Part shown: positions 3,081 to 53,571 of the stretch, piece by piece
How positions within the stretch are numbered: the first letter of the stretch is position 1
Layout of the letters: every line of letters starts with the position of its first letter
NCBI RefSeq assembly: GCF_042242105.1
Contig: NC_092021.1
Span: 7,428,355-7,492,354, forward strand
Origin: Pempheris klunzingeri
Lineage: Eukaryota; Chordata; Actinopteri; Acropomatiformes; Pempheridae
Length of the DNA stretch: 64,000 nucleotides
Reading direction: 5' to 3'
Notes under the pieces: generated by a model
Told to the model about the DNA's origin: nothing
The model's input: only the letters and a program-made list of their open reading frames with translations
The model's database searches: none
Translations under genes and position numbers: made by a program

Positions 3081-3422
3081 TTGAGGAAGAGATGAGTTCT
3101 AGTCTGCAAGGGACCACCAGACCCACACAGGGATGGACCTCCTAGCCGGTCGCCCCCCCAGCGGCCTCTGAAGCACCACCCTCTCACTGTGTAATACTTG
3201 ACCGTCACACGTGTTGGCACTGAGCAGACATGGATGAGAGCGGGAGTGGATGACAGGAGCGCAAAGGCGACTGCCACGGAGAGAAGTCGAGGGGAAGCAG
3301 AGAGTTGTCTCTGGGATGTACTGACCGCTCACCGTTCGAAATCTAACCAAAGACTCCGTCGCACCTTACTGCCAGCGCACATCTGCCACCCTAAAGTAAA
3401 TCAATGGTACATCCTCCAGAGC

Positions 3423-3698
3423 ATGGGGTGTGTTAAATCCAAGAGGAGCAACTGTGCTGGACAAAATGCAAACTCCACAGAGAAGGTGGAAGGCAAAGCC
3501 AAGGGGTCGAGGGGCGAGAAAGCGTACTTGGTTCACTCAGAGATGGGCTCGCCGGAGAGCTCCCCTCAGGTCAACCCAGTGCTGCTGGAGTACGCCCAGA
3601 GGCTCTCCGAGGAGATCGTGGCCCGGGCCGTGCAGCAGTGGATGGAGGTAGACCGTCGCTACAGCGACATCCCCTACATTGAGTGTGATGTGCCGTGA
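3423..3698 (+). CDS. Small membrane A-kinase anchor protein (smAKAP, C2orf88 family)
   Basis: Encodes 91 aa in one exon that follows an acceptor at 3080. The protein starts MGCVKSK: Gly2 fits N-myristoylation and Cys3 palmitoylation, with a basic stretch for membrane binding, as in known smAKAP. Residues 53-75 (VLLEYAQRLSEEIVARAVQQW) form the amphipathic helix expected to bind the type I regulatory subunit of PKA, and the end DIPYIE is the family's hallmark. Family members are about 95 aa, so the length fits. The ATG has a strong context (A at -3, G at +4) and is the only start that exposes MGC. The frame stays open upstream, with another ATG at 3234 in a weak context that would bury the lipid signal. 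Role: tethering PKA type I at the plasma membrane and cell contacts. The neighbour HIBCH is convergent, as in human. No transfer or damage is seen. Confidence 0.85.
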   Translation: MGCVKSKRSNCAGQNANSTEKVEGKAKGSRGEKAYLVHSEMGSPESSPQVNPVLLEYAQRLSEEIVARAVQQWMEVDRRYSDIPYIECDVP

Positions 3699-32679: not shown

Positions 32680-33500
32680 AGTAATAAACAAAAAAACAGA
32701 ATATGTTTTATATTTTACATTCTTCAAAGTAGCCACCTTTAGCTTTGATGACAGCTTTGCACACTCTTGGCATTTTCTCAGTCACCTGGAATGGTTTTCA
32801 ATTTAACACGTTTGCCTTGTCAAGGGTTAATTTGTGAAATTTTTTGCATTCTTAATGTGTTTGAGACCATCAGTTGTGTTGTGCAGAGGTGGGGTTGGTA
32901 CACAGATCTATACAGTGAATAGCCCTATTCATCTACTGTTCTAATCTATATTATGGCAAGAACCACTCAACTAGGAGAATTGACAGCCCATCATTATTTT
33001 AAGACATGATAGTCAATCAGTCTGTAAAATTTCAGGATTTGAATGTATCCTCAAGTGCAGTCTCCGTCCATCAAACACTATGATGAAACTGGCTCTTGTG
33101 AGGACCGCCCCAAGAAAGGAAGACCCAGAGTTACCTCTGCTGCAGAAGAAAAGTGCATTAGAGTTACCAGCCTCACAAACCGCAAATTACACCTCAGATT
33201 AGAGCCACATAAATGCTTCACAGATTCAAGTAGCAGAAACATTTCAACATCAGCTCTTCAGAGTAGACTGTGTGAATCAGGCATTCATGGTCGAATTGCT
33301 GCAAAGAAGCCACTGCTGATGAAGACCAAGAAGAAGAGGAGAGCTGATTGGGACAAGGAACACAAGGATTGGACATTAGACACCAGTGCAAATCTATATC
33401 TATAGTCCAAATTTGAGATTTTTGGTTCCACCTGCTGTGTCTTTGTGAGATGCAGAAAAGGCGAGCGGATGGTTTCTACATGTGTGTTCCACTTGTCTGG
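32680..33500 (+). pseudogene. Tc1-type DNA transposon relic
   Basis: The left part (32700-32800) carries the CTTCAAAGTAGCCACCTTTA stretch of a known fish Tc1 subfamily. From ATGGCAAGAACCACTCAACT (32954) a transposase reading begins, frameshifted near 33010-33045 and continuing in the frame of 33043-33405. Recognisable parts are RPKKGRPRVTSAAEEK, LTNRKLHLR, GIHGRIAAKKPLL and HKDWTLD. The frame breaks again, and SKFEIFGS-like sequence follows at about 33410. The catalytic DDE region and the right end are absent. It is a dead, 3'-truncated copy between HIBCH and the PRR13-like genes. Confidence 0.8.
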
Positions 33501-34200
33501 CGCACAATATTTAAATGTCACCTTTCCCAGGACCAAATAGCCCTGGGTCCTAGCACAGTGTGAAAATAGTCTGTAGTTAAAAAGATGTGTGAGATCCCTT
33601 TGGAGTTTGCCAAGAAATGCTTTGTAAATAAACAGAATGAACCTAACTTTCTATACATACATCTTCCACCACTGGCTATAAACACTGTTGTGTGTCCCTC
33701 AAAGACTGGTGAACTTGTGCTGTAAAGTGTTTGATTACACAGGCTATCACAGTGAGATTAGGGTGACTGCACTGGCAGCTCCAGGGTGTGATGTACTGCA
33801 GTGACCAAGGTGGGGCTGAGGAAACCTTCAACCTTCCCTGAGCAAATAAAGAGCACACCTTGGTTACATTAGCCAGGGCAATAAATTAATGCATTAAGTG
33901 GCATGGAGACAAAATCAATAAAAAAGACAGACATTGAATAGTTTCTAGCTTTTCTCATGTGCAGACAGCACTTTTAATTTTTCTCTCCCAAACACAATCA
34001 TGGATACAACGGTGCCTGCATAATTCTGAAATATTACGGAAAGATTACAGTTCATCATAGCAGACAACAAATGTTCAAACATCCAGAATTGGTGGATGCT
34101 GTGGAGTGAGTCATGTAAAACCTAAAATGTTTTTCATATAATATGTTTTGGCATTTTGGGGTACCGTTTTGTAAAAAAAAAACAAAAAGCATTTTCATTA
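33500..34200. other. Intergenic stretch, nothing recognised
   Basis: AT-rich sequence between the Tc1 relic and the 3' end of the first PRR13-like gene. No exon or named repeat is seen. Confidence 0.6.
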
Positions 34201-34202
34201 CA

Positions 34203-34208
34203 TTTAAT
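34203..34208 (-). terminator. Candidate poly(A) signal, PRR13-like copy A
   Basis: ATTAAA on the minus strand, 132 bases beyond the stop codon of copy A. The distance resembles that in copies B (about 127) and C (about 79). Confidence 0.35.
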
Positions 34209-34339
34209 TGTTTAAAGATGTGACCATCGATGTGGAGAAACATTCAGGCAGTAAAATAGTGATTATAATATAAGGTAGGAGGATGAAGGTTTCCAGGTAG
34301 CACCTCGTCCTGCTTCTCTTCCCATTTGGGAGTCTTCAT

Positions 34340-35139
34340 CTAGTCGGAGTCGCTGCTGCAGGAGCTGCTGGAGGACTACAGCAAGGATGAACGAAGCACA
34401 CAGACATTCGCGTTAGGTTGTATTGCAAAACGTTTTTATGCTCGATATTTCACTGTTTGAACTCTGATTCTAATTTCTGGAGAAAATAAAACCGGTGCAA
34501 TGCCTCATATATGAGAAAATGACCTTAAATGAACTTACCCCATGACAGTCCTTTCCTTTCTTATGACATTTGCCATGCTTGTGACCATGCTTGTGCTTGT
34601 GCCCATGTCCGTGGCCGTGCCCATGACCCTGTCCATGTCCGTGTCCATGTCCGTGTCCATGTCCGTGTCCATGTCCATGTCCATGTCCATGTTCCTGTCC
34701 ATGTCCCTGTCCGTGGCCACAACCAGGTCCAGGTCCATATCCGTGCTGGCCTCCTTGTGGGCCATGGGGTTGAGGAGGGTAGTTTGGTGGTGGGACGGTG
34801 CCTGGAGGATGGTGAGGGTATCCCCCTGGCATCTGCTGAGGATGGTGAGGGTATCCCCCTGGCATCTGCTGAGGATGGTTAGGGTATCCCCCTGGCATCT
34901 GCTGAGGATGGTTTGGGTATCCCCCTGGCATCTGCTGAGGATGGTTAGGGTATCCCCCTGGCATCTGCTGAGGATGGTTTGGGTAACCAGGAGGGTACTG
35001 GTTTCCTAAATACAACAAGAAAAGGATCAATCAAATCAACCATAAGTTAGTACTCAGCAAACGTGATTATCTATCTTGTAATGTACATTCAATATATTTG
35101 AAAGTAGTTGTCTTACTTACCTTGGTTGTGTCCGTACAT
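34340..35139 (-). CDS. PRR13-like His/Gly-rich protein, copy A (Pro-rich repeats plus GH domain)
   Basis: Coding exons: 35121-35139, 34539-35005, 34340-34375 (173 aa), with a non-coding first exon ending at 35281. The protein starts MYGHNQGNQYPPGY. Residues 13-67 are five tandem 11-residue units GY(P)(N/H)HPQQMPG, then a PPNYPPQPHGP linker. A long His-Gly alternation follows (about 98-150), then HKHGKCHKKGKDCHG, and a last exon coding only SSSSSCSSDSD. The Ser tail ending SDSD after a His/Lys-rich stretch, the Pro/Gly/Tyr-rich front and the exon plan resemble PRR13. PRR13's function is poorly known. The His-Gly run and paired Cys could bind Zn, Cu or Ni, but this is inference. No signal peptide or membrane segment is seen. 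It is the first of three tandem copies on the same strand. Copy-number change in its 33-base repeat is likely. It may instead be a distinct fish family sharing only the tail. Confidence 0.7.
34824..34988 (-). repeat. 33-bp coding minisatellite (five units)
   Basis: Five tandem 33-base units, each coding the 11 residues GYPNHPQQMPG (the last has HH for NH). The units are nearly identical in DNA, showing recent spread by unequal crossing over or slippage inside copy A. Confidence 0.9.
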
Positions 35140-35280
35140 TTTCAAACTTCAGATGAAACTACAGTTCCTGAAAGCGAAAAACACAAACACAGTTAAAACA
35201 AATCTGTTTGTCTTTTCACTCGTTGTTTAAGAACCGCAGAGAGCTACAGATCGCCAGCAGAGTTCTCGAGGTGAACCTAC

Positions 35281-35340
35281 CGTGTTCTGGAGAGCAAATC
35301 CACAGATGCAGTCGTACCTGCTGCACCTATTTATATGCAT
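35281..35340 (-). promoter_or_regulatory. TATA promoter and first exon of PRR13-like copy A
   Basis: The minus strand has ATATAAATAG (35327-35336). About 30 bases on comes a short leader with CTCCAGAACACG ending at donor ACG|GTAGGTT (exon end 35281). The same leader and donor appear at copies B and C, so this is a real first exon. TATA boxes suggest regulated, tissue-limited expression. Confidence 0.65.
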
Positions 35341-35344
35341 TCCA

Positions 35345-36360
35345 CTTCCCATCATTAGGGGCAGTGCCTGGACTCTCATCAGAACATTTTTGCTGTATGA
35401 CCTAAATGGGTGGGTGTGTATAATCTTTAACACACAGTCAATATGGACCATGCACAGTCTGATATATGAATCCACACACCCACATACACATTTTTGAAAT
35501 GTTGTGCTCTTGTAATCTTTTTGTCTGGTAACACTTCAATATATTTTGATTTACAGCCTCTTTTGTCATTGCCCAACACTTAAGAAGTAGATAGTGTTTG
35601 GATGACTCAGACATGAGAACATGATATTTCTTTGTTCAAACATGACATCAGTTAATGTGTCACGTGCACTGCACAGTACACTTTTTTATCAGCGGACAAA
35701 CACAAAATCCACTGATTGGGGTTGGGCCAGAGGTGCGACATGTTTGAAGGTTTCGGTCCATGGAAGGCAGCACAGGAGCACAAGCAGCAGCTGCCTGCTT
35801 ACTGAGGATTTGTAGTATTTCATAGGTACAGTTTACATGGCTTGCAAAAAACGGCACTGAACTACTCTTCCATACTGTTATGCACTAAAAAGAGGGACTG
35901 TGCTGGTTTGACCATAACACAGTAATCTATGTGTCAGAGATTAAATGGTGTTATTACAAGACTAAAAATAGCAAAAACATTTGATTATGCAAGTGATTGG
36001 AATTGTATACAAGTGGATGTGCTGGGGAATGGCAGGGTGTGTAACTATTAGAGAAGAACACTGCTGAACAAAGGTCTTAATTCAACGTTCCCTGAGTAAA
36101 TACAGATAATATAAATGCACACTGATAGATAACACAAGGTCAAATGTAAAAGAGAATAAAGAGGTAATGCAATGTAGATTAACTTGCTTTTATTAAAAAC
36201 AGGAACCAGTTTTATGCTGTTTATCAAAGGGGATCAAAGGGTCAATCAAATTAAAAGCAAACTGTGTGAACATTTAATTCTCACTTTGAAATGTGCTGGC
36301 TTGACATTTGATACAAAGCAATACAGTTTATTATGTGACAGCAGATTTAAAATAAAAAAA
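35345..36360. other. Spacer between PRR13-like copies A and B
   Basis: About 1 kb of AT-rich sequence without a recognised exon or named repeat. It probably holds upstream control elements of copy A. Confidence 0.5.
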
Positions 36361-36365
36361 ATGTA

Positions 36366-36371
36366 TTTATT
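36366..36371 (-). terminator. Candidate poly(A) signal, PRR13-like copy B
   Basis: AATAAA on the minus strand, about 127 bases past the stop of copy B. Another AATAAA lies further on at 36189-36194. Confidence 0.4.
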
Positions 36372-36497
36372 GGTCGAATATCTATTAAAGAACAAATGCT
36401 TTGACATTAATGTTGTTATTATCATATAAGCTATCGATGAAGGTTTCCAAGTGATGTTGACGTTGTCTTGCTTCTCTTCCCATCCAGACATCTGCAT

Positions 36498-37663
36498 CTA
36501 GTCAGAGTCACTGCTGCAGGAGCTGCTGGAGGACTATGGAAAGGATAAACATAGTCACTTTATACAGTAATGACATGTTATTCAGTTCATTCATTAAGTA
36601 TGAATTCATAGTTGAATGCCATAATCAGCAACAAATATATGAAATAAAGTGTTGTATTGTTATAATAATAATATTAACTAAATAACAGAAATGTAATGCA
36701 AAGCAGTTCAACAGCACCACAAACTACATTCTCCAATATGTTGGTACAGTTGAGTCAAGACCTCTCTGGAGCGTTCTATCTTTCCTGAAGAAAGATTTAT
36801 TACAGGACTGCTCTATTAAACTGCACTAGTTTTAGCAAGGCGTACCTAATAAACTAGCATCTTAGTGTATTGCCTACATTAAAAAAGACAAAATTAAATT
36901 TCTTAGTATGATGATTTGTGTATGAGCTGTTTCTAATAGTATTTTTTACTTTTACTTATTGCCAGTGGACAGTGGTACAATATCTGTTCTGCACAAAAGA
37001 GACACAATAATTCATAAAATCAACTGGATCGTACCCCGTGACAATTCCTTCCTTTCTTGTGGCAATGGCCATGCATGTGGCCATGTTTGTGCCTATGACC
37101 ATGTCCATGTCCATGTCCATGTCCATGATGTCCATGTCCATGACCATGACCATGATGTCCATGTCCATGACCATGATGTCCACGACCATGTCCATGACCA
37201 TGATCGTGATGACCATGTCCATGACCATGACCGTGATGACCATGGCCGTGTCCATGACTGTGATGGCCATGGCCGTGACCATGTCCGGGCTCACAACCAG
37301 GTCCTGGTCCATAACCATGGCCTCCATGCCCACCACAAGGTGGGGGTACAGGATCACACACAGGAGGACCACAGGGCTGAGGAGGGTAGGGTTGGGGTGG
37401 GGCAGTGCCTGGTGGATATTGAGGGAATCCTCCTGGCATTGGCTGAGGGTGATAGGGATACTGGTTTCCTGGTCAAACGAAATGGGTGGAGCTCATCATT
37501 TCTCTTTCTCTTACACTTGATGTCAATGTCTCTTCTTAAAATTCAGCAAAGAAAGATTAAGAAAAAGGACAGGAGTGGGGTTTCATTAAAAGTGAAAAAG
37601 ACTGAGAATGAGCAGAAGACAGTCACAAGAAGTGAGTTATTTACCTCTGTTTTGCCCGTACAT
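36498..37663 (-). CDS. PRR13-like His/Gly-rich protein, copy B
   Basis: Coding exons: 37645-37663, 37035-37468, 36498-36533 (162 aa), with a non-coding first exon ending at 38018. The start MYGQNRGNQYPYHPQPMPGG matches copy A, but it has only one Pro-rich unit. Next come a PPYPPQPCGPP-type linker with Cys residues and GYGPGPGCEPG. The His-Gly stretch is longer, with GHH steps, then HMHGHCHKKGRNCHG and the same SSSSSCSSDSD last exon. Exon phases equal those of A and C, showing tandem duplication. The second exon's donor is CAC GGG|GTACG, less standard than GTAAG in the other copies. Function is unknown; metal binding or a low-complexity scaffold role are guesses from composition. The plus strand is also open for 257 codons here, which follows from the repeat and is not a gene. 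Confidence 0.68.
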
Positions 37664-38017
37664 TTTGATATCTCAGATCCTGAAACTGAAAAAAGACACT
37701 TAAATGCACACAAATTGCCTTTTTTAACATGAATATAAATTACTTTTGGGAAAATGTAGATAAACCTAAAATGCATGTTGTGTAGAAAGAAAGCAACGGC
37801 AGTTCACTGTGGAAAAGACAGTGTGCTGTGATAAATGTTGCAAAACGTCTGACTTGCAGTGGTCAGAGGTATTACATCATGCGATCTGTAATAAATACAT
37901 CATTAAGCCTCTCATGACTGATTAATCTTACTGATTAAGACACGAGGACACAATAATCAGTCTAAAAACACATACACTTTATGGTAACTATGCATAGAAA
38001 GCTACTAGTGAACCTAC

Positions 38018-38080
38018 CGTGTGCTGGAGTGCAGATCTACAGACACGGCAGCCAGTTGGTTTGCTTTTATGTGAAGCCAC
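38018..38080 (-). promoter_or_regulatory. TATA-like promoter and first exon of PRR13-like copy B
   Basis: The minus strand reads GGCTTCACATAAAAG (38064-38078), identical to the same element at copy C. A leader with CTCCAGCACACG then ends at donor ACG|GTAGGTT (exon end 38018). Confidence 0.62.
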
Positions 38081-38109
38081 GCCTCCGCTGGAAACAATGC
38101 CCACCATCA

Positions 38110-38530
38110 GAGGCAGAGCCTGAACTCCAATGACTCCAACCTACTTTTAATTTTTGGGTTTTTTAGTTTTTTGTGAGGTGTGTAAACATTTTTCAGATTT
38201 TATACCATGATACTAACCCACAATACTAATAACATGATTATTTATATGTTTTTGTCACCATATAGCACCACATGAGCAAGAATGGCAAGAGTGCAGGGCA
38301 AACTCATACCATCATAGGTTGGCGTGGCATTTTTAAATTTACATACATTAATATAAATTTTTTAAATAAAATAATTAACAATGTTTCTTTCCAGTCAAAC
38401 ACAGATGTAGCTAACTGAAGCCATAAAATGTCTTTCTCTATTAGAGCCTTATGTCTTATTTTGGCACCATCTGTGGGTCATATCAACAATGACACTGTGG
38501 CAGACAGCAATACACACCATTATCACATCC
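38110..38530. other. Spacer, nothing recognised
   Basis: AT-rich sequence upstream of copy B, before the LINE relic. No exon is seen. Confidence 0.5.
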
Positions 38531-38539
38531 AAACCCACC

Positions 38540-39860
38540 ACCCCTTCCCTCACAGATCCCAGTTGGAAAAACACGTGTGTAGGGAGGAGTTTGTTGAGGC
38601 TGTGGAGAAGGACTTTTAGAGGGCCTCAAGCACGTGCAAACTGTTTGGTGGTTCAGGAAAGGAAAGAAGAGCTTGGACCGGGCTGTGTTTAGCTGTGTTT
38701 AGAGGAGTGAGGATACCGCTGGCCAGTGGAAACAACAATTTAAAGAACTCCTGTATTCAACCAACGTGTGCTCTGTGGAGAGGGCAGGGTCTAAAGACTC
38801 GTTGGAAGTCTCACCCATATACTTGGCAGAGGTCTCTAACGTAGTTAAGAAGCCACTCAATGGAATGGTGATGCCCATGTGATGCCAGGTGAGGATGGGA
38901 TTTGGCCTGAGATGCTGGAGGTTCTGGGCATCGTTGTGCTGTCTTGTCTGACACCTGACTACCTGTGGAGTGGCAGACCAGCGTGGTGGTTCCCATTTTC
39001 CTGGGACCGGTCACACTGCCCAGCCTCCAGAGAAAATTGTGTTTCAGAGTGCTGGAAAGGAGGCTCTGGCTGATTGTCAAACCTCAGATTCAGGAGGAGC
39101 AATGTGGATTATGTCCTGGCTGTGGAACAATGGCTCAGCTCTTTACCACTGCAAGGTTGTATGAGTGGTCATGGGAGTTTGCTCATCGAGTCTACATGTG
39201 TTTTGCAGAGGCCTAAGACCATGTTGCTAGGGGAATTCTGCAGGGGGTACCGCAGGACTATGGTGTGCCCTGACATGCTACAAGTCATCCGGCCCCTTTC
39301 TAATTAAAGTCAGGGCTGTGTCCATATTCTAAACACAGAGTCAAATGTGTTCTCAGAAGGTGTTGCACTCTGCTAAAGTTGTCTCTTGTACCGATTTGGT
39401 TTGTGATACCCATGGACAGGATTTCAAGGTGCAACTGAGGTTTAGAGAGTGTCCAGTCTGGAAAACTCAGAACTGCATTTCTGCTTTTTGTAGTTGGCTT
39501 TTTCAGATTGTGACCCCCAGCATGCACTGGGGCAGCTGAGTGTGAAGCGGCTAGGATAAGAGTCAGCAAGAGTTGCTCCCTCTGGGTTGGAGGTGAGTTG
39601 CTGCAACCAGGCGACAGAATCCAAGTATCCCAGTGTCTTGTTCACAAGTGAGGGTAAAAATGATGTACCCCTGGCAGTAATGTGGGTACCCTACTGGACC
39701 ATTGTGATAAAGAGGGGTCTGAGCTGGAAGGCAAAGCTCTATTTACCATCAGTCTATGTTCCAACCCTCACCTGTGGTCATGAGCTTTGCATAGTGACCA
39801 AAAGAACAAGACTGTGGATACAAGTAGCCTGAACAGGGCGCCTCATCCTGGTTTCACGGT
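38540..39860 (+). pseudogene. Broken LINE reverse-transcriptase relic between PRR13-like copies B and C
   Basis: Plus-strand pieces, in several frames with stops, look like the reverse transcriptase region of a fish non-LTR retrotransposon: a RGGSHFPGTG-like stretch, DSGGAMWIMSW, RGLRPCC.GNSAG, THGQDFKVQLRF, then EVSCCNQ, YPSVLFTSEGK and VYVPTLTCGHEL.IVTKRTR. Many stops mean it is dead. The clade cannot be set by eye. Its insertion separates copies B and C. Confidence 0.65.
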
Positions 39861-40439
39861 CAGCTTGGTTTTTTGGAGCCAGAAGTGACGTTCATTTCAC
39901 GAAGAAAAAGAAAAACACAGTCCCGCCCTAAAGCATACCCTGCTGTATTGGCTGTTTTACTCTAAGTGGGACCACAATTTACAAAATGAACACCACGCTG
40001 GATTGAAGAAGTCTTGAAACTAGCTACTGAGACCATAAGCTCATTAGGAAAATTTTAACTGAGGTGATAAATCAATTGAAAAGTCGCCTAATTTTATCAT
40101 AGACTTCCATTCATTCGGACCCCTTTTTGCAACTAGTAGAGCAGTTTAATGTCAGTTTAATTAATATGAATGGTTTAAAGCTGAGGGTTTTAATTGATAA
40201 GGTCAAGAGTTAAAATGACATTCATAACTTAATTTCTCATATATGATAATACAGGGCATGACACTAATAAGGGAAACGCAAGCGACAGTATAGTGTGATT
40301 TATTATGTTAGTATTTGATTCAAAGCCATACAATAAGTGAAAGATTTCTGTTTTGTATGTGTATTCCACATGTTTAGTAAAAGCTTGTTTACATTTGTTG
40401 GGTCAAGAAAATACATGCTTTTAACTTACAAAGAACGTC

Positions 40440-40445
40440 TTTATT
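40440..40445 (-). terminator. Candidate poly(A) signal, PRR13-like copy C
   Basis: AATAAA on the minus strand, about 79 bases beyond the stop of copy C. Confidence 0.5.
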
Positions 40446-40523
40446 TACATGATTCTTGTATAAGGAAAGAGGTTGAAGGTTTTCAGGTGGTGACTTGCCT
40501 TGTTTCTTTTCCCATTCAGGAAT

Positions 40524-41312
40524 TTAGTCAGAGTCACTGCTGCAGGAGCTGCTAGAGGACTACAGCAGGGATGCACATAGAAGAAAAAACAAACAGATAA
40601 CAGTTTCATCATTCAGTTCCTGCCAAAAGAGTTGGAATGAGTCATAAATCAATGTATCCCTGTGTTCAGTCTTCATTAGAAAGGATTCTACAAACATTTT
40701 ATGATTCATGTTTCTCTGAACTCTGAACAAAATCCACTTTCTGGTGTGAATGATCTGAACGCTTCAAATGTTGAATCTTACCCCATGACAGTCCTTCCCT
40801 TTCTTGTGACACTTGCCATGCTTGTGGCCACCCTTGTGCCTGTGCCTGCGCTTGTGCCCATGTCCATGTCCATGTCCATGTCCATGTCCATGTCCATGTC
40901 CGTGGCAATGGCCACAACCATGTTTATCTCCATGACCGTGTCCACGACCGTGTCCATGACCATGTCCATGACCGTGTCCGTGTCCATGGCCATGGCCTCC
41001 TTGACAACAGTGTCCTCCTGTAATTAGTCATAAATCAATATCTAGTAAGATATTGAGACCCCTCCATCATGGTTGAAAGTAGAGGTAAATTTGTTGTTTG
41101 TTCTGAATTACAATAGCTATACGTTATTGAATGTATGACTGTAATTGCTGCTTTTATATGTAAAATTCAATAAACAGAATTGACAAAAAAATAAATAAAT
41201 AAATCAATATCTAGTAAATGTGAAGGCCAATTATATTAAATATGTTCAATACATATGGAATAGATGAGGACGAACCAAAAGCTAGTTATTTACCTTTGTG
41301 TGAGTTGTCCAT
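40524..41312 (-). CDS. PRR13-like His/Gly-rich protein, copy C (short, no Pro-rich region)
   Basis: Coding exons: 41294-41312, 40782-41017, 40524-40559 (96 aa), with a non-coding first exon ending at 41550. It starts MDNSHKGGHCCQGGHGHG, so the Tyr/Pro-rich front of copies A and B is gone and a Cys pair follows the first exon. His-Gly repeats run with GDKHGCGHCHG in the middle, then a basic KRRHRHKGGHKHGKCHKKGKDCHG end (split here by 20-residue limits into KRRHRHKGG and HKHGKCHKKGKDCHG), and the shared SSSSSCSSDSD exon. The stop is TAA, not TAG as in A and B. With six Cys and dense His it is the strongest metal-binding candidate of the three, by composition only. Exon phases and promoter match the other copies. 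Confidence 0.65.
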
Positions 41313-41549
41313 TTCAAAACGTCAAACCCTAAAATCAAAGAAAATAAAATGATTTGAATGAATCCACACAGATCCCCAATGAGCAAATCAATGCTTTTTC
41401 ACATTAAAAAAAAACAAACACCTGAGATGGCAATGAACTTTACAAAACCTTCCAAACCTTCCAAAGCATTCAAAAACAGGCAATTGCAGCCGATATGTAC
41501 AAAAGTGTTAGTGCTACAGATCATCAGCTGAGTTTGAAAGAGAACTTAC

Positions 41550-41614
41550 TTTGTGCTGGAGAGGAAAATTCACAGACACAGCTGTCACCTGCTGCTCCTT
41601 TTATGTGAAGCCAC
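41550..41614 (-). promoter_or_regulatory. TATA-like promoter and first exon of PRR13-like copy C
   Basis: GGCTTCACATAAAAG on the minus strand (41598-41612), identical to copy B. The leader CTCCAGCACAAA then ends at donor AAA|GTAAGT (exon end 41550), a changed form of the donor in A and B. Confidence 0.62.
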
Positions 41615-41619
41615 ACCTG

Positions 41620-43085
41620 AACCTGGATCAGTACATCAGGGGCAATGCCCACATGCTCCTCACAAAACCTTTGTTTTCATGAGGCTACAGGATGTGACCC
41701 GTAGTGTGTTTAATCTGTACCATCCAGTACATGTAACTAAGTACACACTAACAATATTACAACTTTGATAAAATAGCATTGTCGTGCTATTTGTAATACT
41801 CATACTGGTGTTATGAACATTGTGAAAATAAAAATGTATAAATAAATAAATAAAAGATCTACACATAGATCTAACGAACACAAACACACATCATTTAACA
41901 CCTGAATCAGTGCGTTCATTCAGAGGTATTTTTGTCTTCTGCATGACTGACAGGCTTTTGATAGACCTTTTCCTCATAGCTGTCCGCAGTGTTATCAGGA
42001 AACAAAACATGCATTGTCTCCTCTGAAGAGTGAGTCACGACCTGTGGCAGTCAAGTCATAGCTAAAATCTTTGGGGATTCACGTCTCAAGTCAAGCCTTT
42101 GGGAGATTAGTCTCAAACCTAATCCAGTCTTCTGTTTAGGGAGTCATGCCTTGAGTAAGTCAAATCTGAAGTCCTTATTTTTGAGTTGAGTACAATAATG
42201 GTGAAAAAAAAAATCTTACATCTGCTGTTTTTGACTAAACCACAGGAATACTTGAATATACAATTTTACCGTGAAATGTAATCTTAACTCTTGCTGAGGG
42301 GAGTATTCAGCATTCAGCCGCCACCCTCCTCCCTTTCGTCTAAAAAATGTGGGGGAAACAAAACCAGCTTCCTTATCAGCGTGTGGTCATGCTTAAGACT
42401 CTGAACAAACAGTGGAAAGCCGTGTGCTTTTGCAGTCACCTGAGCTACACAAATAAACACGCTTTTATTGACAAGACGTTCCCGTGGCATTCGAAGACTG
42501 TCATGCTCATTATGCTGTGTGAGCATTCACAGACCTTTACACTCACCTTTTAACTGTTAAAGCATCTCAAAACAGTCACAACCACACCTGTAAATCCACT
42601 TCAAAAATTCAGGTGTCAGAGACTTATCAGTTCTCCTCAGAGTTTGTATCTATGTTTAAAGTGACAAAACGTACAGATTCTGCTCCTGAGGGTTCGAGAG
42701 GCAGGCTTATGACTGGAAGATTGCAGCTTTGAATCCGCCAGCTTCTTTTCTCAATATTCTGACAGTAAAACCAATGCCAGAGCATGTTCCCACGTGCAGT
42801 AGGAGGTGGTGCTGAAAAAAATGTGTCTGCTCTGCCAAATCTCTTACTCTGATAAAGGTTAAAACATCATGGGAAATCACTGTCCATTAAACTGTTGTCA
42901 CATTGTCACATAAGGGTAACATTTGGTCTCATCAAAACAATTAAAAATCATGATAGATCAGCATCGTGTCTTGTGAGAATTAAGTTTTAAATAGAAGAAC
43001 TGCCATATGTACACTTTGATATTTGGCTGCGTACATTCCAGTGATAAGTACACTGAAGACACAGGCAAGATAATACCATAGAAAA
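41620..43085. other. Intergenic stretch between copy C and LSS
   Basis: No exon is recognised. Small open frames at 41553-41768 and 42347-42553 match nothing. It may contain upstream control of copy C. Confidence 0.55.

Positions 43086-43535: not shown

Positions 43536-53571
<10,036 letters not shown>

Follow-up and report, generated by a model that had tools for sequence, protein, structure and literature searches.

Do the histidine-rich genes clustered on one chromosome of the fish Pempheris klunzingeri descend from PRR13, and what might their products do? The question arises from a 64,000-nucleotide stretch of contig NC_092021.1 (assembly GCF_042242105.1, positions 7,428,355 to 7,492,354 of the forward strand; herein referred to as the window), in which three minus-strand genes (genes 1, 2 and 3) form a tandem array between 34.2 and 41.6 kb. 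Comparison of their sequences with the PRR13 gene of the same genome indicates that the three are very probably distant tandem paralogues belonging to the PRR13 family.

Exons and phases were read from the sequence, and splice sites were set by consensus and by comparison between the copies. Each gene comprises a non-coding exon 1, an exon 2 with 19 coding nucleotides (nt) that ends in phase 1, a repeat-bearing exon 3 (467, 434 and 236 nt in genes 1, 2 and 3, respectively) that ends in phase 0 and a 36-nt tail exon encoding SSSSSCSSDSD and the stop codon, with GT donors and AG acceptors at the introns. The original prediction, made from the letters alone, of three genes on one strand with the same phases and the same tail is therefore borne out in all three copies. 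It had also proposed a shared motif just before the tail; such a motif exists, although the quoted H-K-G-K-C was inexact, and exon 3 of every gene ends in the core H-G-(K/H)-C-H-K-K-G-(K/R)-(D/N)-C-H-G. The 3' end of the non-coding exon 1 is clear, and the 5' end was placed tentatively with the help of a TATA-like box. Coordinates in the window are as follows (^, exon border):

34340..34375, minus strand: gene 1 tail exon, SSSSSCSSDSD plus stop, 36 nt (sequence reading and block comparison)
34539..35005, minus strand: gene 1 exon 3, with 33-nt Pro/Tyr-rich repeats, a (Gly-His)n tract, a CHKKGKDCHG end and a phase 0 donor
35121..35167, minus strand: gene 1 exon 2, coding 35121-35139 (19 nt), MYGHNQ^G, phase 1; two AGs are candidates for the 5' end
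35281..35305, minus strand: gene 1 non-coding exon 1, 5' end inferred; TATA box at 35330-35335
36498..36533, minus strand: gene 2 tail exon, 36 nt (sequence reading and block comparison)
37035..37468, minus strand: gene 2 exon 3, with a Pro-rich start, GHGHGHGHH-type repeats and a CHKKGRNCHG end; its donor, GGG^GTACGA, appears weaker than those of genes 1 and 3
37645..37679, minus strand: gene 2 exon 2, coding 37645-37663 (19 nt), MYGQNR^G, phase 1; the 5' end was picked by eye from two AGs
38018..38041, minus strand: gene 2 non-coding exon 1, 5' end inferred; CATAAA box at 38066-38071
40524..40559, minus strand: gene 3 tail exon, 36 nt (sequence reading and block comparison)
40782..41017, minus strand: gene 3 exon 3, without Pro, with a (Gly-His)n tract holding an extra Cys and a CHKKGKDCHG end
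41294..41328, minus strand: gene 3 exon 2, coding 41294-41312 (19 nt), MDNSHK^G, phase 1
41550..41575, minus strand: gene 3 non-coding exon 1, 5' end inferred; CATAAA box at 41600-41605

The reference for comparison is the PRR13 gene of the same species, whose genome was searched over 646 Mb in 439 contigs. A human PRR13 protein used as a whole-genome query gave one weak match among 18 candidates (E 0.26), a repeat. PRR13 was located via its synteny with pcbp2, which a PCBP2 query places at C2:16.057-16.059 Mb; a short way upstream, a gene combines an exon 3 rich in Pro and in His/Lys with a Ser run on an exon of its own. Its spliced frame reads MWPNQ^G..HKHGHHKHGK^SSSSSSSSSSD; exon 2 contributes 16 coding nt (phase 1), exon 3 is 449 nt long (phase 0), and the 36-nt tail exon encodes SSSSSSSSSSD and the stop codon. 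The donor of its first exon was picked by eye, and exon 1 of the array is conserved. The adjoining kinase exon (L025:8344-8700, G000 C2) has activin and TGF-beta receptors as its best PDB matches and is read from its sequence as a putative amhr2, which fits the ayu amhr2 synteny figure, whose legend names prr13, pcbp2 and map3k12 (PMC8389408, figure legend). No second PRR13 was found among the matches listed for five stretches near a pcbp2-like locus on C11. PRR13 had been described in the original prediction as ending in a His/Lys stretch and a Ser run to SDSD; the gene found here does have the His/Lys-rich end and the Ser run, but it closes on SSD.

The array genes share with this PRR13 the exon order and the succession of a phase 1 and a phase 0 intron (3/3 genes), a short coding part in exon 2 (M..NQ^G in both PRR13 and gene 1), a long exon with a His/Lys-rich end and, in genes 1 and 2 only, a Pro/Tyr-rich start, and a 36-nt Ser-run tail exon ending in Asp (4/4 genes). 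The acceptor and tail start AG^TCCTCCAGCAGC is common to PRR13 and genes 1 and 2, with gene 3 one base off (TCC TCT AGC AGC at the start of its tail, compared with TCC TCC AGC AGC in the other three), and when the tail block of PRR13 is aligned with that of each array gene, none of 1000 dinucleotide shuffles reaches the score in any of the three comparisons. A 27-nt joint acceptor/tail pattern has four exact matches in 646 Mb, all within these four genes, and its reversed control has none; because the pattern was drawn from the four sequences, this shows its rarity and is not an independent prediction. The DNA at the end of exon 3 also aligns between PRR13 and the array (HKHG-HKHGK aligned), with 4, 34 and 8 of 1000 dinucleotide shuffles reaching the score for genes 1 to 3, gene 2 being the weakest. 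By this alignment, exon 3 of the array extends 30 nt beyond the PRR13 donor, and the extension codes for the Cys-His end, CHKKG(K/R)(D/N)CHG; the exon border reads CATGGCAAG^gtaag in PRR13 versus CATGGCAAGTGTCAC in gene 3 (the three array exons end at window positions 34539, 37035 and 40782).

The two kinds of gene also differ. PRR13 has neither the (Gly-His)n tract, which is open and in frame in the array, nor the Cys-His end, and exon 2 has 16 coding nt in PRR13 versus 19 in the array. Further observations weigh against a common descent: a hydrophobic Gly/Met stretch and KKMKKKMKKAHK are found in PRR13 and in none of the three array products, gene 3 has no proline at all, and PRR13 adjoins pcbp2 and the receptor kinase, whereas the array lies elsewhere. 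When the array proteins are aligned with the fish PRR13, shuffles of the whole sequence seldom reach the score (0, 0 and 3 of 1000 for genes 1 to 3), but shuffles in 25-residue blocks often do (111, 354 and 163); for human PRR13, the corresponding counts are 0, 8 and 0 for whole shuffles and 93, 415 and 5 for blocks, and the protein similarity, on these comparisons, does not appear to go beyond layered composition. For exon 2, 499, 38 and 439 of 1000 shuffles score at least as high, and a PRR13 exon 3 query of the genome retrieved itself and one weak match (E 0.44) among four candidates, not the array. A promoter in common with PRR13 (GGCGTGGCTTC in gene 2) was considered and is not relied on, because 105, 20 and 289 of 1000 shuffles reach the score for genes 1 to 3. 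In view of the block-shuffle, exon 2, promoter and exon 3-query results, the case for paralogy rests on gene architecture, the tail and the end of exon 3 rather than on overall protein likeness, and the predicted PRR13-family origin holds for phases, exon order, the 36-nt tail and the acceptor/tail start while finding no such backing in the proteins as a whole. Since the locus differs (smAKAP and LSS/MCM3AP versus pcbp2), the array genes are taken to be paralogues and not PRR13 itself.

Comparison of the copies with one another suggests what has been maintained. In a block-by-block comparison of gene pairs (200 mononucleotide shuffles per block), the exon 1 block (64 nt, including the TATA region), the final 69 nt of exon 3, the tail and the opening 75 nt of the 3' untranslated region (3'UTR) score above all shuffles in 3/3 pairs; exon 2 does so in one of three pairs, the upstream block in one of three (with one tie), the introns in one of nine comparisons (with one tie) and the next 75 nt of the 3'UTR in none of three. 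Across 34 C-terminal codons (23 from exon 3 and 11 from the tail), the ratio of nonsynonymous to synonymous substitution (dN/dS) is 0.07, 0.10 and 0.18 for the three pairs, with dS of 0.64-1.01 and Fisher p of 1e-5, 2e-4 and 3e-3, which indicates that the C-terminal ends are old coding sequence under purifying selection; a coding function of the three genes is, on this evidence, almost certain. Within the Gly-His tracts, third codon positions hold 21/23, 26/53 and 22/36 of the differences at a lag of two codons (genes 1, 2 and 3); gene 1 shows a clear excess, gene 3 a moderate one and gene 2, whose register is shifted by HH insertions, a slight one. Selection on the tract thus appears clear for gene 1 alone, which weighs against the explanation favored below; an earlier count of the tract was no test, because its dicodons had been picked by residue.

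Two other accounts of the origin have to be set against descent from PRR13. An unrelated gene with a Ser tail and a His-rich end might have arrived at the plan of PRR13 by chance, as the layered-composition result, the weak or absent similarity of exon 2 and promoter and the different locus and middle part would allow; yet such convergence would have to yield two matching phases, a tail exon of equal length whose first bases are identical in genes 1 and 2, four joint pattern matches in the genome and alignable tails and exon 3 ends, and we consider it very unlikely. Alternatively, the genes could be neutral relics, in which minisatellites grew by slippage inside decaying PRR13 duplicates. The 33-nt repeats and the Gly-His hexamer are of the kind that slippage expands, and gene 2 combines a weak-looking donor with little third-position excess in its tract; however, the frames are open through the spliced exons of all three genes, dN/dS is 0.07-0.18 at the ends, and exon blocks are conserved whereas eight of nine intron comparisons do not exceed shuffles, so that decay seems highly improbable. 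We retain the reading of the array as distant PRR13-family paralogues.

At the sensitivity used, the tail appears to occur solely at the three array loci and PRR13. The tail pattern has three matches genome-wide at up to 3 mismatches. The joint acceptor/tail pattern, at up to 2 mismatches, has 20, comprising the four genes, two places at 1 mismatch, which were dismissed as tails once their sequence was read, and a further 14 with 2 mismatches, mostly AGC repeats as judged from the matched letters alone. A gene 1 query of the genome gave ten rows among the 150 scored of 6665 candidates, three in the array and seven elsewhere (six places, one of them on C2); five of these places (L003-L006 and L008) were considered as family members and rejected, all five being dinucleotide repeats. 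Profiles of four exon blocks, built with nhmmer from the three copies, match strongly at those copies and reveal no fourth in the window, the remainder being three weak exon 3-end matches (E 1.2-5.4) inside the genes' own repeats. A gene 2 query of viral and prokaryote collections yielded 81 and 587 pattern matches, of which none was confirmed as a relative, and neither Rfam nor tRNA scans found anything in the window.

The predicted products of genes 1, 2 and 3 have 173, 162 and 96 residues and contain 20-30% His and 25-31% Gly. In gene 1, the 33-nt repeats encode a Pro/Tyr-rich unit, a part that gene 3 lacks, and overall Pro content is 16.8% in gene 1, 13.6% in gene 2 and nil in gene 3. The longest His run in exon 3 is 2, 2 and 1 residues, respectively, and the motif GHGxY does not occur there in any of the three. 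A Pfam scan gave nothing above cut-off, only sub-threshold matches; the PDB search gave four weak matches for gene 1 (E 0.003-0.036) and none at E 0.1 for exon 3 of genes 2 and 3. A structural model of the gene 1 exon 3 product (three sequences in) has a mean predicted local distance difference test score (pLDDT) of 49.7 and a predicted template modelling score (pTM) of 0.12, with no DSSP output, and this very low model confidence is as expected of disorder. The highest 11-residue mean hydropathy is -0.38, 0.25 and -0.38 (a hydropathy scan without a signal-peptide program), and by this measure none of the products has a hydrophobic leader. Given the lack of a Pfam domain above cut-off, the weak or absent PDB matches, the missing leader and the low-confidence model, the products are likely to be intracellular disordered proteins.

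The regulatory surroundings of the copies hold two further features:

35353..35363, 38105-38115 and 41634-41644, minus strand: promoter element TGCC(C/T)CT(A/G)ATG upstream of the TATA box (read off the three-gene alignment)
34265..34339, 36423-36497 and 40449-40523, minus strand: conserved 3'UTR start, 75 nt (3/3 pairs alike, the next 75 nt not)

The TATA-like box lies about 55 nt before the exon 1 donor and reads TATAAA in gene 1 and CATAAA in the other two. The element TGCC(C/T)CT(A/G)ATG is present in all three genes by construction, because it was written from their alignment, and it is absent from the 1 kb upstream of PRR13. Observed/expected CpG is 0.41, 0.40 and 0.26 at the array genes versus 0.61 at PRR13. 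CpG-poor, TATA-type promoters with a common proximal element suggest strong, tissue-restricted expression, unlike that of PRR13. The 1 kb upstream of each gene was scanned with consensus motifs for metal-response, antioxidant, heat-shock, KLF, GRHL and p63 elements. Metal-response elements number 1, 1 and 0 against shuffle means of 0.43, 0.55 and 0.51, which is shuffle level and speaks against a role in metal handling; GRHL has one site in gene 1, the antioxidant element one in gene 2, and the remainder none. Metal-responsive or stress regulation was accordingly set aside, none of the six motifs being common to all three upstream regions. The conserved first 75 nt of the 3'UTR may be a regulatory RNA element; readthrough of the stop codon into WE(E/K)KQ, which follows in frame in all three genes, was rejected because a 4-nt length difference between gene 2 and the others breaks the frame.

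Taken as a whole, the explanation that we favor, at about an even chance, is that of PRR13 paralogues that have TATA-type promoters and encode metal-binding or condensing proteins bearing a (Gly-His)n tract and a Cys-His end. After duplication, the genes would have gained the Gly-His tract and the Cys-His end, and their products would stay inside the cell, as the missing hydrophobic leader suggests, and remain unfolded. Alternating Gly-His and two Cys-His pairs suggest binding of Zn or Cu at multiple sites: several Zn(II)/Cu(II) ions could be held by the alternating His, and the Cys-His end would bind most tightly. Crosslinking of the His tracts, dependent on metal or pH, would then allow the products to condense, and the Ser-Asp tail, which presumably holds a CK2-type motif, could act as a phosphorylation switch. 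That metal binding or condensation is the main activity can be proposed only tentatively, as can the metal binding or scaffolding suggested in the original prediction, and the known droplet motif, GHGxY, which is missing from exon 3, stands against it.

Known His-rich systems offer partial parallels. Plasma histidine-rich glycoprotein (HRG) is secreted and carries folded domains before its His-rich region; the array products have such a region too, but neither a Pfam match above cut-off nor a hydrophobic leader, and the accessible parts of papers on 'histidine-rich glycoprotein-like' proteins gave no link to the array. In some mycobacteria, GroEL1 is reported to end in a tail of the GHGHGH type, and Cu(II) is bound by related His-rich model peptides (PMC10170517); there, however, a short tail is attached to a chaperonin-type protein, whereas in the array the tract makes up much of the protein. 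The disordered histidine-rich proteins of squid beak (HBP) likewise consist of Gly/His-rich repeats and phase-separate (PMC6884462), but they carry tandem GHGxY with an essential Tyr, whereas the array has none, and no kinship of genes is suggested.

Two functional alternatives bear on the same features and are not mutually exclusive with metal binding or condensation. The products may have kept the reported nuclear, transcription-linked role of PRR13, with the His tract altering only localization, for example to speckles. The PRR13 gene plan and the basic His/Lys end would suit this role, and PRR13 is described as nuclear and a likely transcriptional regulator, with down-regulation of THBS1 (TSP-1) reported (PMC11936294); the same source finds Prr13 dispensable for CD4 T-cell responses in mouse blood-stage malaria, which casts doubt on the role of PRR13 itself. 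A His tract acquired by a duplicated gene can redirect its product to speckles, and interrupted tracts also occur in half of the poly-His proteins that were examined, but targeting is reported from 6 consecutive His upward: GFP with 5 His behaved as GFP, and with 6 it was concentrated weakly (PMC2644819). Against this requirement of at least 6, exon 3 of the array genes has runs of at most 2 (2, 2 and 1), and we regard nuclear regulators as a somewhat unlikely reading. Abundant low-complexity epithelial proteins, condensing or crosslinked through Cys and His in the manner of cornified-cell and squid beak proteins, would fit the TATA-type, CpG-poor promoters, the small repetitive His/Gly/Cys products, the tandem arrangement and the phase separation of the squid proteins; such a structural or barrier role is rather doubtful, as the array has neither the Tyr-bearing GHGxY that the squid proteins need nor a hydrophobic leader for secretion.

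Neighboring genes were sought by a Pfam scan of ten open frames, with 4-33 kb of the window covered by the open-frame list only; the closest genes recognized around the array are smAKAP and LSS/MCM3AP. The open frame of smAKAP, the small membrane A-kinase anchor protein, lies at 3195-3695 (Pfam, 109.7 bits), a lanosterol synthase (LSS) exon at 43716-43985 on the minus strand (PDB search) and Pfam-recognized MCM3AP/GANP exons at 56-63.5 kb, also on the minus strand. A relic of a Tc1-like transposase adjoins gene 1 at 33043-33402 (29.9 bits, narrowly short of the Pfam cut-off at 31.5).

On the same chromosome (C10), a PCBP-like gene is found 0.97 Mb from the array; the chance of one within 1 Mb is about 2%, a post hoc estimate from 7 PCBP-like loci among 36 PCBP2-query rows. 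Human 21q22.3 holds PCBP3, LSS and MCM3AP together, and FTCD as well; in this fish, FTCD is on C24 and not C10, and C24 also has a PCBP-like locus. A whole-genome-duplication origin of the array is possible from these positions. Because the array lies 0.97 Mb from a PCBP-like gene on the LSS/MCM3AP chromosome, as PRR13 adjoins pcbp2, it might even be the whole-genome-duplication sister of PRR13, lost in mammals and now a dosage-flexible His-Gly-Cys set for metal buffering and condensation with tissue-restricted promoters, a speculative and on balance improbable extension.

Among the matches listed from the open-access literature, no description of such an array was found; most subscription papers and the gene databases, which may hold automatic names, lie outside that scope. 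PRR13 is a poorly understood vertebrate gene, and relatives that keep its gene frame around a Gly-His middle would provide a natural experiment on its conserved ends. The array may likewise offer a small system, suited to expression, in which to study metal binding or condensation through His in vertebrate cells.

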